Shown piece after piece: positions 6,719 to 20,077 of a stretch of DNA of 64,000 nucleotides. The position numbers were made by a program, and so were the translations under genes. Under the pieces are notes generated by a model. It worked only from the letters and a program-made list of their open reading frames with translations. It did not search any database and was not told the DNA's origin. Source of the stretch: Candidatus Saccharimonadota bacterium. Lineage in GTDB: Bacteria; Patescibacteriota; Saccharimonadia; Saccharimonadales; Saccharimonadaceae. The first letter of the stretch is position 1; the number at the start of each line of letters is the position of its first letter. Location: assembly GCA_017514805.1 (NCBI GenBank), contig JAFWIP010000007.1, forward strand, positions 1 through 64,000, written 5' to 3'.

Positions 6719-9700
6719 TTATCGCCAGCGCAAGACTACGCCGTCTTCAGGATTATCTTCTTGCTTCTTTGCCGGGGTCGGCTCTTCTTTTGCCACGGGA
6801 GATGCCGCCGGAGTCGAAGTTTTCTTCTCATGATGAATCTTAATTCCGCTCGCCAAATCATCTTGCTTTGGCGCCGAAACCACCCCCGCCACATCTTCAT
6901 TCGAAGCCGCCTCTACATTCTTCTCGGCCGCCGCCGCCCAAATCGAGCCGCCTGCCTCAGATATAATCTCATCGGCTGCGTTCTTTTGTTTCGTAGACAA
7001 ATTATCATTCTTCATCGGATGCCCTGCCAAAGAATCCGCCTTCGGCTCCTTTAGGGCAGACTCAACTACCTCCGACGGAGCTTTCTTCTCTACTGGCGCA
7101 GATGTTGCCTTCGCTGGCGCAGCCTTCGGAGCGGCTGGTACACTCTGTTTCTTCTCGATAACTTCGTGCGCCTCTTCTTTCGCCTGCTTACTCAGTTCTG
7201 CTTTCTTTTCAAGCCAAGAATCCAAGAAGTTCTTCTTTGGCGCCGGCTTCGAAGCTTCACTTGTACTACTGGCACTTGGTTTCTTCGCCGCCAAGCGCTC
7301 CTCAATCTCCGCCTCAACCTCGGAACGCGGACGACCGTACTTCGATAGCGCATACATTCGCATCCTCTGACCAAGCTCTTCCGACCCCTCACCCATCGGC
7401 GGCAACGAACGCATCGTGAATGGTGCTGTCGGCGTATCGAACATCATTACCGTCGCAATCCAGTTGAAGTTTGGCTGTTTGTGAAGGTCCTCTGCCGTAA
7501 ATACCGGCGAGAAAGCTTTCTCCATCAATTCCGCATCCGTCACGCCAATACGACCAGACATAATCGTACCGACGTTACCGAGGATAGCCTCGCGAATCTT
7601 ATCGGTTAGCTGCGTCATGAACTGGTTCGCCAAAACAAGGTTCAGACGGTATTTGCGCGCCTCAGATAGAATCGACTCGAAACTCTCTGTCGCAAAGTTC
7701 TGGAACTCGTCTACGAAGAGACAAAAATCAACGCGGTCATCCTCCGGAATGTCCTGACGACTCATCGCTGCAGCCTGGAATTTCATCACGAAAATCATAC
7801 CGAGCAGCTGTGCGTTCAATTCACCCGTCTTACCCTTCGAGAGATTAACGAGAAGAATCTTCTTGTTGTCCATAATCTCGCGAATATTAAAGCCTGACTT
7901 GGTCTGGCCAAGAATGTTGCGCATCATCTTATTCGAAAGGAATGGACCCCACTTCGAAACAAACCAGCTCGTCACCTCACCAGCATCACTCGACTTCTGC
8001 GAAGCTGGAAATTCCTTTGTCCAATAATCATAGACAGTCTTATCTGTTACGTACTTCAACTTCGACTTCACAAATTCTGGATCAATGAAACAGCGCGGAA
8101 TATCAATGAAAGTACCACCGGCCGGATCGCTCATGAGAAGCAAAGCCGCATTGCGGAACATATGCTGAGCACGCGGACCAAAGATACCCTGGTTTCCCGG
8201 ATCATACAAAGAGGTAAGCATATTAATACCCTCTTGTACGATAAAGTCCTTTTGGTCCTCGGTATCGAATTCAAACATATTCATACCGACCGGACTATCC
8301 ATATAACCAGGCTCGAACACAATCACGTCATCCATGCGCTCTTGCGGTACGCGACTGAGCAACCATTCCACCGCATCGCCGTGCGGATCAATAAAGGCAA
8401 AACCACGCCCATCACACATATCTTGATAGGCCAAGTTCTCAAGCAACACGGATTTACCAGAACCAGTAGCACCGATTGCATAAGTATGGCGACGACGATC
8501 CTTTACCTGGAGGCGGATCTCTTTCTTCTCGCCACGGAATTCATTTACGCCAAGAAGCAGACCTTCCTCCGCCAACTTCGCCGGACCATCTACTTGCTTC
8601 ACCGCCTGGCGTTCAACCTGGCTCGTCGGAATCGCATTCTGACTTGGCAAGTGGAAAATACTCGCCATTTCTACGCTGTTCAAGATCATATCGCTCTGAT
8701 TCTGCGGGAACCAGCGCAAAATATAGTTACGTGCCAGCTCTTCCGAACTATTCAAAAAATCATAGCGAAAACCATTATATTGCGCCAAATCGAACTGCGA
8801 AAACACCGATACGACGCTGTTTAATACCGCCTCCGAACGCGGTTTCGATGAAGAGCTCGCAATCACCCGAATCAATGCCTCGAATCCAGGATATTTTGTC
8901 TTTTCCTCAATCCTCTGAATCTCTTCTTGCTCAAGATTAGTCAGTGCCTTATCTTCGGCCGCTTTGTAGGGATCATGCTCCTCAGGCGGCCTCCAGAGTG
9001 CCTCCGCAACATCACCTGCCAAGTTTGCCGCACTATTAACGACTCTGCCTAATACGCCAGCCGCTTTGTTAGCCTTTTTACCATCCTTTATATTTTGTAC
9101 TCGCTCGAGTGATTTTTTTACCCAACCGCCATCAGTCGGACGAAACATTATCTGTACCGCTACACCATCACCCTTCTTTGCTGTTGAGAGTGCATTGATT
9201 AGACCGAGGCTCGCATCACGCTTCGTATCTTCGTAGCTTGCAATTGGATAGTAGAACTCTTCCTTAAAGCGAAACTCACCGCCAACAACCGCATCGATAC
9301 CGCCCTCCTTACTGAAGAAGTTCGGATCATTCACTTCCTCTAGGCGCGCCGTTGGATAAGCAGCCGTAATCGCCTGCTTAACCGTCTCCGTTAGCACCGC
9401 TGGTACTACCGCGTAGTACTTAATAAAACCATCGTGCGCCACAATCTCAAAACTGATATGCTTCTGGCCGTACAAACGCGTCTTTAAACCTTTTGCCAAG
9501 GTGGACGAGATAATACTATACATCACCTGCGCCTCAGAAATCTGCTCACCAATTACGTCACGCTCATCACGCCCATTCACCTGGACATCATCAGTCGATG
9601 GCGGTAGATGAATCAACATCGGTACCATCTTTAGCGCGCGCGCATAATTCTTTTTATCGCGCTTTGCCCCAGCAAAAGTCTTCCAGACTATCACCCCAAT

Positions 9701-9748
9701 CACTACGATAACTGCCAGTACTATCAGAGGAGTTATTAAGCCATCCAT
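6719..9748 (-). CDS. TraG/VirD4-like conjugation-type ATPase, membrane-anchored
   Basis: Large P-loop ATPase of 1009 residues from the preferred start. An N-terminal membrane helix (about residues 5-25) is followed by a poorly characterised CPR-type region to about 400. The ATPase core has Walker A GATGSGKS (about 426-433), a Walker B segment ending LFVDEFQNF, and a TraG/TraD-type C-lobe (LANQFMTQL). The last 200 residues are Ala/Lys/Glu/Pro-rich and probably disordered. Family members couple substrates to type IV secretion channels; in CPR they are common but their substrate is unknown. I start at 9748 because GGAGG sits 8 nt upstream; the in-frame ATG at 9763 overlaps that ribosome site. 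It directly follows a small partner gene. Confidence 0.85.
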   Translation of the reverse strand: MDGLITPLIVLAVIVVIGVIVWKTFAGAKRDKKNYARALKMVPMLIHLPPSTDDVQVNGRDERDVIGEQISEAQVMYSIISSTLAKGLKTRLYGQKHISFEIVAHDGFIKYYAVVPAVLTETVKQAITAAYPTARLEEVNDPNFFSKEGGIDAVVGGEFRFKEEFYYPIASYEDTKRDASLGLINALSTAKKGDGVAVQIMFRPTDGGWVKKSLERVQNIKDGKKANKAAGVLGRVVNSAANLAGDVAEALWRPPEEHDPYKAAEDKALTNLEQEEIQRIEEKTKYPGFEALIRVIASSSSKPRSEAVLNSVVSVFSQFDLAQYNGFRYDFLNSSEELARNYILRWFPQNQSDMILNSVEMASIFHLPSQNAIPTSQVERQAVKQVDGPAKLAEEGLLLGVNEFRGEKKEIRLQVKDRRRHTYAIGATGSGKSVLLENLAYQDMCDGRGFAFIDPHGDAVEWLLSRVPQERMDDVIVFEPGYMDSPVGMNMFEFDTEDQKDFIVQEGINMLTSLYDPGNQGIFGPRAQHMFRNAALLLMSDPAGGTFIDIPRCFIDPEFVKSKLKYVTDKTVYDYWTKEFPASQKSSDAGEVTSWFVSKWGPFLSNKMMRNILGQTKSGFNIREIMDNKKILLVNLSKGKTGELNAQLLGMIFVMKFQAAAMSRQDIPEDDRVDFCLFVDEFQNFATESFESILSEARKYRLNLVLANQFMTQLTDKIREAILGNVGTIMSGRIGVTDAELMEKAFSPVFTAEDLHKQPNFNWIATVMMFDTPTAPFTMRSLPPMGEGSEELGQRMRMYALSKYGRPRSEVEAEIEERLAAKKPSASSTSEASKPAPKKNFLDSWLEKKAELSKQAKEEAHEVIEKKQSVPAAPKAAPAKATSAPVEKKAPSEVVESALKEPKADSLAGHPMKNDNLSTKQKNAADEIISEAGGSIWAAAAEKNVEAASNEDVAGVVSAPKQDDLASGIKIHHEKKTSTPAASPVAKEEPTPAKKQEDNPEDGVVLRWR

Positions 9749-9749
9749 C

Positions 9750-10214
9750 TTATGCGCCTCCATTCAGGCCATCGCCCAATTGCCGACCATAAGCCTTCTT
9801 GAGTAAGTCCCAACGCGCTTTATCTAGATCATTTACTAACTGATGCGGATCACGTTTATCGCTCTCAACTATCTTTGCCACCGCCGCGACATATGCTTTC
9901 GGAAGCTGCTCTGCATCTCGTGGAATATCTATCTTCTTCAGCTCAGCTACCTCATGACTTTCAGGCTCATCGGCGATATCTGTTACGGGTGGAGCAATAG
10001 TTGGCATCGCGCTCGACTGAACCTCACTAGCCATCTCGGGAACACCTACATTCTTTTCGGAATTTAGCGGATCTTGCTCACCACTCTCTTGTGGCTTCTC
10101 TTTATTCACAAAATCATCAAAATTCATTACCTCGCCAGAAGGCACGTTTTCAGGAGGAGTCAAAATAGCGCCATTCTCGCCTGGAACAGAGCTAGAACCA
10201 CCCATATTATCCAT
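9750..10214 (-). CDS. Small acidic partner protein of the TraG-like ATPase
   Basis: 154-residue soluble protein of unknown function. The first 100 residues are Pro/Glu/Ser-rich and look disordered. The last 50 (from IDIPRDAEQLPKAYV to the GDGLNGGA tail) form a likely helical domain with charged and aromatic positions such as DPHQLVNDLDKARWDLLKKAYG. No signal peptide or membrane segment is visible. TATAAT at 10227-10222 leaves seven bases before the ATG at 10214, suggesting a leaderless start there rather than at 10220. The stop lies 1 nt before the ATPase start, implying coupled translation and a shared complex (inference). Confidence 0.7.
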   Translation of the reverse strand: MDNMGGSSSVPGENGAILTPPENVPSGEVMNFDDFVNKEKPQESGEQDPLNSEKNVGVPEMASEVQSSAMPTIAPPVTDIADEPESHEVAELKKIDIPRDAEQLPKAYVAAVAKIVESDKRDPHQLVNDLDKARWDLLKKAYGRQLGDGLNGGA

Positions 10215-10222
10215 AAGCATTA

Positions 10223-10591
10223 TTATATCACATTACGTGACGTCAAAAAGCAAAGTAATATTTCGAGAAAAACCACAATCACAACTTCGCCAATCGATAT
10301 GCCGCCGAATGACCCAACCAGCATTAGAGCAACCGGCGCCAATGCTACCACTAACCCATATCTGAGACTCTTTTTACTAAGATTAGTTGATGCTTTCGCT
10401 TTATTGATCTTTCCGCGAATCATAAAAAATAGCCTGCAGCCTAAAGCCGCAAGCCCTAAAAAGAACAAGTAGGATGTTGTAAAAAATACCAAAACACCTA
10501 CTGGACCGATTGAACTCGGAGAGGTTAGAAACATCATTGCCGCCAAAACGACCGCAGCAAGCACACTTATCATTAGCAACAACTTATTCAT
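10223..10591 (-). CDS. Four-helix membrane protein, unknown
   Basis: 122-residue protein starting MNKLLLMISVLAAVV with about four transmembrane segments and a short basic cytoplasmic loop (RGKINKAKASTNLSKKSLR) in the middle. An extended -10 TGCTATAAT ends six bases before the ATG at 10591, so I place the start there rather than at an upstream in-frame ATG at 10639. No family recognised. It precedes the small partner and the TraG-like ATPase on the same strand, so it could be a membrane component of the same machinery, but that is only context. Confidence 0.65.
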   Translation of the reverse strand: MNKLLLMISVLAAVVLAAMMFLTSPSSIGPVGVLVFFTTSYLFFLGLAALGCRLFFMIRGKINKAKASTNLSKKSLRYGLVVALAPVALMLVGSFGGISIGEVVIVVFLEILLCFLTSRNVI

Positions 10592-10639
10592 AAGCGAATT
10601 ATAGCACAGAATGCCTTCCTCTGCCCTTATGATAGCCAT

Positions 10640-11034
10640 AACTAATTCAAGTAGCCCTCAAGCTAGATAAGATTTTGCTACTATCGTTCCCCGACAAGAT
10701 TATCCTGGGCTAAAGGTAGAGAGGATTATCTGGCAAATATATACATTACTTAAAGCCACAATCTTTGTGTCTACCTATTAGCTCGATTGACCGCCTCTCG
10801 TATAGAGAGGCATTGTCCTTGTAAGTTCTCTACAGTTCTCTATTCTTTGGGTATCAATGTGCTAAAACTGTTTTGATCCTTACGCGCTCTACGCTCCTTA
10901 ACTCTCGTTAAGCTTTGGCGGAGCTTAGCTTACTCCTAGGTGTAATTTATGGCTAGAAATAAGCTATTACTACGCCAAATTTCACTCTCCCTGAACTATT
11001 TTTTTGTTTTGCTTGTTTGTTTTAATTCAAGCAT
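10640..11034 (-). ncRNA. Unassigned structured RNA B (~395 nt)
   Basis: A gene-free stretch behind a near-consensus promoter. On the minus strand it can form GCCTCTC/GAGAGGC around 10800, CTTAAC-GAGA-GTTAAG around 10908, GGAG/CTCC around 10925, AGGTAGA/TCTACCT enclosing CACAAAGATTGTG (about 10720-10780), and TAGCCC/GGGCTA (about 10650-10712). No reading frame of note crosses it. It is similar in length and promoter type to RNA A but I see no sequence similarity between them. It matches no family I know. The 3' end is uncertain; 10640 is approximate, and no strong terminator is visible before the next gene. Confidence 0.6.
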
Positions 11035-11040
11035 ACCTTG

Positions 11041-11069
11041 ACTATAGCAAACATAAGCACAAAAGTCAA
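11041..11069 (-). promoter_or_regulatory. Promoter for RNA B
   Basis: Minus-strand TTGACT (11069-11064), a 17 nt spacer and TATAGT (11046-11041). The predicted start is near 11034. Confidence 0.85.
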
Positions 11070-11364
11070 TAATTATTGTGCTCAAAATTTATAGTATTTT
11101 TTACAACATAGTATCATTCAACAGAGGTAAAAACTGTTGATAACTACGTTGTGTATTTTACAACAACAGTCTCACTCATTACCAAAAAGCCTATCCTTCT
11201 CGCCGACAATTATTTTACTCAACCGCCATTTTTCTATTACTCGATCACACGCAAATGCATTTTTAAAAATTATTCGTGTTTAATTTACTTGCTCATATTT
11301 CCCCTGCATAATTATTTTCCACAATCCCTACATTTTAGTTGTGAAAATTACAACACTTTTTTTA
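11070..11364. other. AT-rich gap between divergent RNA promoters
   Basis: Very AT-rich, with several near copies of GTTGT...ACAAC and single DnaA-box-like words (TTTTCCACA near 11320, TGTTGATAA near 11136). No supported gene: an 85-codon frame on the plus strand has no ribosome site and an unlikely composition. It separates RNA B on the minus strand from the small RNA on the plus strand. Confidence 0.4.
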
Positions 11365-11581: not shown

Positions 11582-11948
11582 TGGTGGAGCTGCCGGATAC
11601 TGCCTCCGGGTCCGATAAATCTCCATGCATGCATTCTACGAGCATAGTCTATTCTTTTATCTTGGCACTCTCTAAAGGCTGGAATAAACAAAACCTCTAG
11701 ACGCCATGACTAAATTTTCGTGCCGACTACCGTCGCAAAGTCGACCTTAATACCATGAGTATAATACCGAAATCACGCTATGGTATCTCGAGTGACCCGA
11801 TAAGATCTACAAATTCAAGATCTTAGGCGTAAGCTGGCATGTATGCCACATGCTTACTAGCAGTTTTGTCTGCATTTACTTAAGTACTTACGGTACAACT
11901 CGACTCGCCTGCATACTGTTAATAAACCGTCTAAGCTTTGTCAGCCCC
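11582..11948 (-). ncRNA. ssrA: Transfer-messenger RNA (tmRNA)
   Basis: Ribosome-rescue RNA of 367 nt. The 5' GGGGCTG (11948-11942) pairs with 3' CAGCTCC, followed by ACCA at 11582, giving the seven-pair tRNA-like acceptor. The T-arm (GGACCCGGAGGCAGTATCCGG) closes near the 3' end. The tag frame at 11873-11823 begins GCA and ends TAA, encoding ADKTASKHVAYMPAYA, and a GATCTT/AGATC hairpin follows it as in helix 5. The tag ends in AYA rather than the usual ALAA. A TTGAAA-17-TAAAAT promoter lies upstream and a terminator downstream. It is divergent from comM and their promoters interleave. Confidence 0.95.
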
Positions 11949-19721: not shown

Positions 19722-20077
19722 CCTGTAGCTCGCTCTAGTAAGCCGGGTTCTGTAACTACACTCAAAGGCGCAGCCTGTAGCCATCTATCTAGCTCTACGA
19801 TTGCTCATAGAGTCAAGCGGTGAGCGACCATCCGCGGATCACGGTATCTAGGTCTCCTTGCAGCCGATAGAGTTTACCTCACCCCACTGTCACCAGCGAG
19901 GTCTGTGGGCTCTTACCCCACTCTTTTCACCCTTACCTCCGAAGAGGCGGTTTAGTTTCTGTGGCACTTTTCCTACGCTTACACGCGGTTGCCGTTAGCA
20001 ACTATCGTATCCTGTGCTGCCCGGACTTTCCTCTCGCCATTTTTCAGGCCAGCGACTACATTGAACGAGCTGCCCTA
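19722..20077 (-). ncRNA. rnpB: RNase P RNA, class A
   Basis: Catalytic RNA that removes 5' leaders of tRNA precursors. On the minus strand GAGGAAAGTCCGGGC and ACAGAACCCGGCTTA form the P4 core, and the outer AGCTCG/CGAGCT helix is P1. GTGAAAAGAGTGG-like and GGTAAACTCTATC segments are the specificity-domain and P15-type landmarks. A TAAAAT -10 sits about 5 nt upstream of the predicted 5' end. The ends are good to a few nucleotides. The hairpin at 19628-19665 terminates it. Confidence 0.95.

Follow-up and report, generated by a model that had tools for sequence, protein, structure and literature searches.

A large structured RNA of Saccharibacteria with a putative antisense loop for the start of infA mRNA

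A structured RNA of about 345 nt, encoded in a 64,000-nt stretch of a Candidatus Saccharimonadota genome (hereafter the window), represents a new RNA family of Saccharibacteria. It carries a 16-nt seed, CUAGCCAUAAAUUACA, perfectly complementary to the infA (IF-1) mRNA over its predicted 5′ end and start codon. Judged from these sequences, the RNA is probably a stand-alone antisense regulator, transcribed from its own minus-strand promoter and acting in trans on the infA start, where it would repress. The sequences argue well for this infA-antisense role in three genera.

An earlier note on this DNA had placed here an unassigned, non-coding RNA of about 395 nt, driven by TTGACT-17-TATAGT and lying next to tmRNA. 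The promoter is indeed present; the note named neither a strand nor a function, and the actual strand is minus, with TG preceding the −10 (Table 1). An RNA gene does follow it, its length being corrected to about 345 nt, from an inferred start at ∼11034 to ∼10690 (−), where the 3′ end is approximate; its folded core spans ∼10979–10700 (−). The tmRNA adjoins at 11582–11948 (−), as had been stated; it scores 83.4 bits with Rfam, yet is absent from the ARAGORN output. A second large RNA mentioned in the note may be the RNase P RNA (349 nt, 19723–20071, an Rfam match), which lies within 10 kb. The note had reasoned that a lack of conservation would count against the RNA. Such a lack did not occur: blastn found the RNA in 36 of the 37 genus genomes, a count that includes the own genome; its helices covary and its promoter is conserved. 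Relatives align as an RNA with compensatory pairs and not as a protein gene, which agrees with the non-coding assignment.

Table 1. Positions in the window of the RNA, its parts and its adjoining elements.
Feature	Positions	Strand	Basis or remark
RNA	10690..11034	−	5′ end inferred from −10; 3′ end approximate; BLAST conservation, alignments, structure, fold
RNA promoter: TTGACT, 17 nt, extended −10 TGCTATAGT	11041..11069	−	Kept in aligned loci
Palindromic operator-like site, TGTTGTAAAAAATACAACA-type, just upstream of promoter	11090..11108	+	Pattern search; conserved columns upstream of −35
Second palindromic site	11147..11165	+	Pattern search; second conserved copy in alignment
5′ hairpin GCUUG...CAAGC with A-rich loop, then A/C-rich unstructured tract	11011..11032	−	Alignments, MFE fold
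Seed domain: stem UUUGGCG/CGCCAAA and inner stem presenting apical loop	10914..10979	−	Helices 1 and 2
Antisense seed CUAGCCAUAAAUUACA, apical loop	10941..10956	−	Perfect complement of infA mRNA 5′ end
Hairpin CUUAACGAGAGUUAAG	10897..10912	−	Helix 4; most variable helix, compensatory changes in all 6 pairs
Conserved 3′ domain (model R1)	10710..10826	−	Structure, covariance-model searches
Membrane protein gene, no Pfam or NCBIfam match	10223..10591	−	Syntenic neighbour, not part of the RNA
Separate promoter of the downstream gene, TGCTATAAT, 6 nt before ATG (leaderless)	10589..10606	−	−10 survey

Palindromes of the form GTTGTA-N5-TACAAC (11090–11165 and relatives) are conserved upstream of the RNA promoter, and the pair suggests that the RNA may itself be regulated by some factor. 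Seven such sites with up to three mismatches occur in the window, against a shuffle mean of 0.22. Across the genome, the palindrome GTTGTANWWWWTAC has 20 sites versus 0 in a reversed control; because most of these lie inside coding sequence (V-V-K-N-T-like codons), a regulon was rejected and none is claimed.

The Infernal comparison with Rfam that the earlier note had proposed matched the RNA to no described family. At normal and permissive settings alike, no family reached its gathering score in the window stretch, and the same was true of 13 related loci; the RNA thus stays unassigned. The matches below threshold (LhrC, snoZ30a, 6A, SNORA46 and others) were well short of their gathering scores and were dismissed as chance. 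Neither 6S RNA (RF00013, E up to 1) nor bacterial SRP RNA (RF00169) was matched in the whole genome, nor was 6S RNA in the window, which leaves room for a diverged version of one of them. The RNA could be such a version, or a diverged second tmRNA or RNase P relative, but we regard an origin of this kind as highly improbable. Besides the lack of any Rfam family above cut-off here or in the 13 relatives, tmRNA and RNase P RNA are present separately, and the comparative fold consists of several helices in a row, unlike 6S RNA, the structure of which is a single long bubbled rod. The SRP54 domain was likewise not found above cut-off in the own genome (G000, estimated to be 98.9% complete), from which the signal recognition particle may be missing altogether.

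The structure of the RNA was examined in an alignment of 34 sequences (A1), which omits two of the 36 loci (L009, near-identical to L008, and L028, the 5′ end of which is cut). Standard pairs are formed by 95.6% of 2,539 cells, and 28 of 75 pairs have changed on both sides; none of 500 shuffles reached either value, so that the covariance analysis advocated in the earlier note came out in favour of the RNA. Versions of the structure slid along the alignment dropped to 35–44% standard pairing. The structure was derived from this same alignment, which favours the figure for paired cells and makes both-side changes the stronger measure; the 75-pair totals include the nine pairs of helix 3, a pseudoknot candidate. 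Both hairpins that had been read from the sequence, GCCTCTC/GAGAGGC (10811–10793) and CTTAAC-GAGA-GTTAAG (∼10912–10897), belong to the comparative structure.

The 5′ hairpin takes the form GTGC/GCAC in relatives, as read from the alignments without pair counts. In the seed domain, 99 to 100% of the cells of helices 1 and 2 are paired, with compensatory pairs in the inner stem. At its tip, CCAUAAAUUACA forms an open 12-nt loop in the window RNA (predicted unpaired probability 0.84–1.0), while the flanking CUAG is paired. The 3′ domain has two hairpins, GCCUCUCUAUACGAGAGGC (10811–10793) and AUUGUGGC...GCCAGAUAAU. A pseudoknot between AUUAC of the seed and GUAAU of the 3′ hairpin loop (helix 3) is not claimed: 86.9% of its cells are paired in the genus, never with a both-side change, and the loop also differs in the second genus. 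In some loci, the frame TTT GGC GTA GTA ATA GCT TAT TTC TAG across the first stem has the look of a short peptide; it was rejected, being explained by the stem, with changes that alter amino acids and no common start codon. The resemblance of ATTAGATACCC to what we take to be a 16S rRNA stretch was treated as chance.

The gene matched by the seed is identified as that of IF-1 by TIGR00008 (111.5 bits). RNA and infA lie on separate contigs (C5 and C9, respectively), the RNA having its own promoter and no overlap with its target. The own genome holds only two perfect copies of the 16-mer, those of the RNA and infA; two further sites have two mismatches, the same number as with the reversed pattern, which gave no perfect match. 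When the RNA was shuffled 300 times, the longest match to the infA start was 12 nt, as against 16 nt for the RNA itself. The loop together with CUAG is exactly complementary to UGUAAUUUAUGGCUAG, which takes in all 8 nt of the predicted infA leader, the start codon and five bases beyond it. The −10 of the infA promoter is found about 6 nt before UGUAAUUUAUGGCUAG, which puts the complement of the loop at the very start of the predicted mRNA.

The match recurs in related genomes. In searches allowing up to two mismatches, the RNA copy was perfect in all 13 genus genomes examined and the infA copy had 0 or 1 mismatch; further sites had two mismatches, except for one 1-mismatch site in G034. The same antisense match occurs at a second place in G034, G035 and G011. 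In G035, this second site (L193) is a putative membrane protein gene, divergent from an aquaporin-like gene, which starts with the GTAATTTATGGCTAG leader; the corresponding gene of the own genome lacks this leader. Of 62 genomes from the three genera with the loop, 60 (25/25, 33/35 and 2/2) have GTAATTTATGGCTAG at infA nucleotides −7 to +8, and none of 24 genomes from other genera does; these counts come from related genomes and are not independent. The 16th position of the site is free to vary, with T, G, A or C found there. Across the three genera, nothing is more constant than the loop and its infA target, and even members that differ by hundreds of bases in the middle of the RNA share an unchanged loop. 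Genera with a loop-less RNA also commonly have one part of the infA leader, TGTAAYTTATGG, and some of the conservation of the leader must for that reason have another cause.

The two copies also change together. In G175, a T to C change in infA (leader GTAATCT) is matched by an A to G change in the RNA loop (CATAGATTAC), and pairing is kept. In G328, the RNA stem is kept and the loop has been replaced (covariance-model match), and infA departs at two positions. Both exceptions to GTAATTTATGGCTAG among the 62 genomes are thereby described: one is compensated in the RNA and the other belongs to a genome whose RNA has lost the loop. Five further genomes (G015, G387, G412, G321 and G326) have the A to G change in the RNA with infA unchanged, where pairing survives as G-U; a G219 contig with the G321-identical sequence, probably stray, was not counted among these variants. 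Two genomes speak against the pairing: G207 and G252 keep the infA site, and neither the loop pattern nor the covariance model found the RNA there, G252 giving only a weak covariance-model match away from the usual neighbours.

These variants bear on another way of reading the shared 16-mer, as the DNA site of one regulatory protein that lies at the infA start and, by coincidence, inside the RNA gene. A complement is the same DNA word on either strand, and the infA copy does sit at the predicted transcription start. Against this, the RNA copy occupies the open apical loop of a covarying hairpin, far inside the gene, each genome has only two perfect copies, and all five uncompensated variants of the RNA copy keep RNA pairing through G-U. 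We therefore consider a protein site very unlikely.

Pairing between two RNAs would work as follows. A stiff hairpin would present the 12-nt open loop flanked by CUAG, and both would pair with UGUAAUUUAUGGCUAG at the head of the infA mRNA. With a predicted leader of only 8 nt, this pairing would cover the start codon and keep the 30S subunit off, and less IF-1 would be made. We infer that the RNA is expressed, that it pairs with infA mRNA in the cell and that the outcome is repression rather than protection of the mRNA. If pairing takes place, repression is the outcome that we expect with reasonable confidence; activation, through protection of the infA mRNA end, is possible. The calculated duplex energy with infA is −25.3 kcal/mol, and the strongest duplex among 52 ORF starts of the window reaches −30.6 kcal/mol; hybridisation energy does not discriminate infA and was discarded as proof of the target.

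The position of the RNA in front of a conserved gene raises the question of a cis-acting role, in which it would be a long 5′ UTR regulating a membrane-protein/TraG-like operon. The membrane protein gene downstream opens a run of genes, the last of which encodes a TraG-like T4SS ATPase (6719–9763). In 133 of 137 loci the membrane protein gene follows the RNA, on the same strand, the other four loci ending within 402 bases, and nine diverged RNA copies in other genera also stand upstream of TraG. This arrangement says little for a cis leader, because the whole neighbourhood (ComM, IF-3, tmRNA) is also syntenic; tmRNA lies upstream of the RNA in 95 loci on the same strand and in 24 on the other, these locus counts including duplicates of the same genomes. 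More directly, TGnTAnnnT occurs 3–9 nt before the downstream gene start in 140 of 143 loci (99 distinct sequences), versus 3.6% at random places, and with its own extended −10 so close the downstream mRNA should begin at the start codon. Read-through from the RNA is possible, and the predicted −10 elements point to separate transcription where a cis-regulatory leader would be cotranscribed with its gene. In G397, moreover, an intrinsic terminator, ATACCCCAGCGGGGGTATTTTT, separates the RNA from the gene. A cis-acting leader thus seems improbable to us. Starts of this leaderless type, with the −10 right at the start codon, may be more general in the window, where 19 of 52 long ORFs have TANNNT 4–16 nt upstream of ATG, against 13.7% at random places, with ORF starts not curated.

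The distribution of the RNA and that of its loop are different. Outside the family, blastn found the RNA in none of 24 genomes from other families of the order. The loop pattern TTNCTAGCCATRAATTACA (up to one mismatch), which also matches infA, was found in 110 of 392 genomes of the order: 20 of 20 in the genus of the window (g1), 85 of 88 in g27, one in g63 and four stray. When 36 genomes were searched with CCATAARTTACA for a loop complementary to infA outside these genera, the matches inspected outside infA were unrelated, apart from G397, and L269 proved to be infA itself; such a loop was therefore rejected. A covariance model of the 3′ domain (R1), built from 65 sequences with the loop left out, matched 18 of 48 genomes at E up to 0.1. 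Ten of the matched genomes belong to genera without the loop pattern and have the match upstream of TraG on the same strand (G117, G250, G183, G329, G221, G315, G144, G297, G158 and G392); a repeat analysis recovered nine, G158 being the exception. This gives nine more genera of the family with diverged copies, each copy lying immediately before the same TraG-like gene. Matches in G050 and G056 (other families) and in G252 have no TraG neighbour and were taken as chance. Since R1 matches stand upstream of TraG where the loop pattern is lacking, the RNA is, on this comparison, older than its infA-complementary loop.

The same distribution gives some weight to the idea that the main job of the RNA lies elsewhere, for example in protein binding, with the infA match a protective, activating or minor side function that arose in three genera. 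The 3′ domain and the location are family-wide and the loop is confined to those genera; in six members from other genera, complementarity to the own infA start is at the shuffle level of 6–9 nt, as it is in the loop-less G328. The RNA is also far larger than an antisense loop needs. Such a main job does not compete with pairing itself, and within the three genera the loop and the target remain the most constant parts. We hold it to be a real prospect, though short of an even chance. Somewhat more doubtful, and offered tentatively, is a picture that joins it to the antisense role: an old RNA scaffold, family-wide and fixed between tmRNA and the TraG-like operon, might carry an exchangeable address loop, directed at IF-1 in three genera and at other mRNAs elsewhere. 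If so, one RNA would tune the start of all translation in those three genera, perhaps between free and host-attached life.

An antisense regulator of infA would resemble the trans-encoded base-pairing RNAs (Hfq-type sRNAs, RoxS) in being encoded away from its target and complementary to a translation start, with a single-stranded seed in a loop and a target that evolves with the seed. It differs from them in its much larger size, its target (IF-1), its Saccharibacterial host and its 15–16 nt of unbroken complementarity to the extreme 5′ end of an mRNA that has almost no leader. RNAIII of Staphylococcus aureus is likewise a large folded RNA, whose hairpin loops serve as antisense seeds against the start regions of mRNAs; it also encodes a peptide, and its C-rich loops are directed against Shine-Dalgarno sequences. 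Here, no conserved ORF was seen and the target is without a Shine-Dalgarno sequence. OLE, GOLLD, ROOL and HEARO are large structured RNAs of unknown or partly known role. Like them, this RNA has several hundred nucleotides, conserved loops and a restriction to some lineages; unlike them, it can be given a specific mRNA target, and none of their Rfam models scored above cut-off. Among the titles listed by a literature search, which covered few subscription papers, none describes an RNA regulator of infA or an RNA of this group, and a term search of PMC10768705 gave no occurrence. Base-pairing regulators are a known kind; the size, target and host group appear to be new. Little is known of gene regulation in Saccharibacteria, the genomes of which are very small. 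A conserved RNA for which a target in the translation machinery can be named provides a first concrete post-transcriptional circuit to test there, with compensated, lost and exchanged loops as natural experiments.

The seed-hairpin pattern was also searched more widely, giving 101 stretches in genome contigs and none in viral contigs. The titles are almost all Candidatus Saccharibacteria, mostly from animal gut or rumen, with one Nomurabacteria and one 'bacterium' as exceptions. The entry titled Candidatus Nomurabacteria (L103) has the RNA and its neighbours as in Saccharibacteria, yet bears the other name, and is probably a mislabelled bin. Two assemblies, G347 (L347, L348) and G219 (L345, L346), each contain two different copies of the RNA; one of the G219 copies is identical to that of G321, and contamination is likely in G219. 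In some loci (L100, L101, L111, L123 and L135), an extra stretch of about 300 nt with an apparent structure of its own lies between the seed domain and the 3′ domain.
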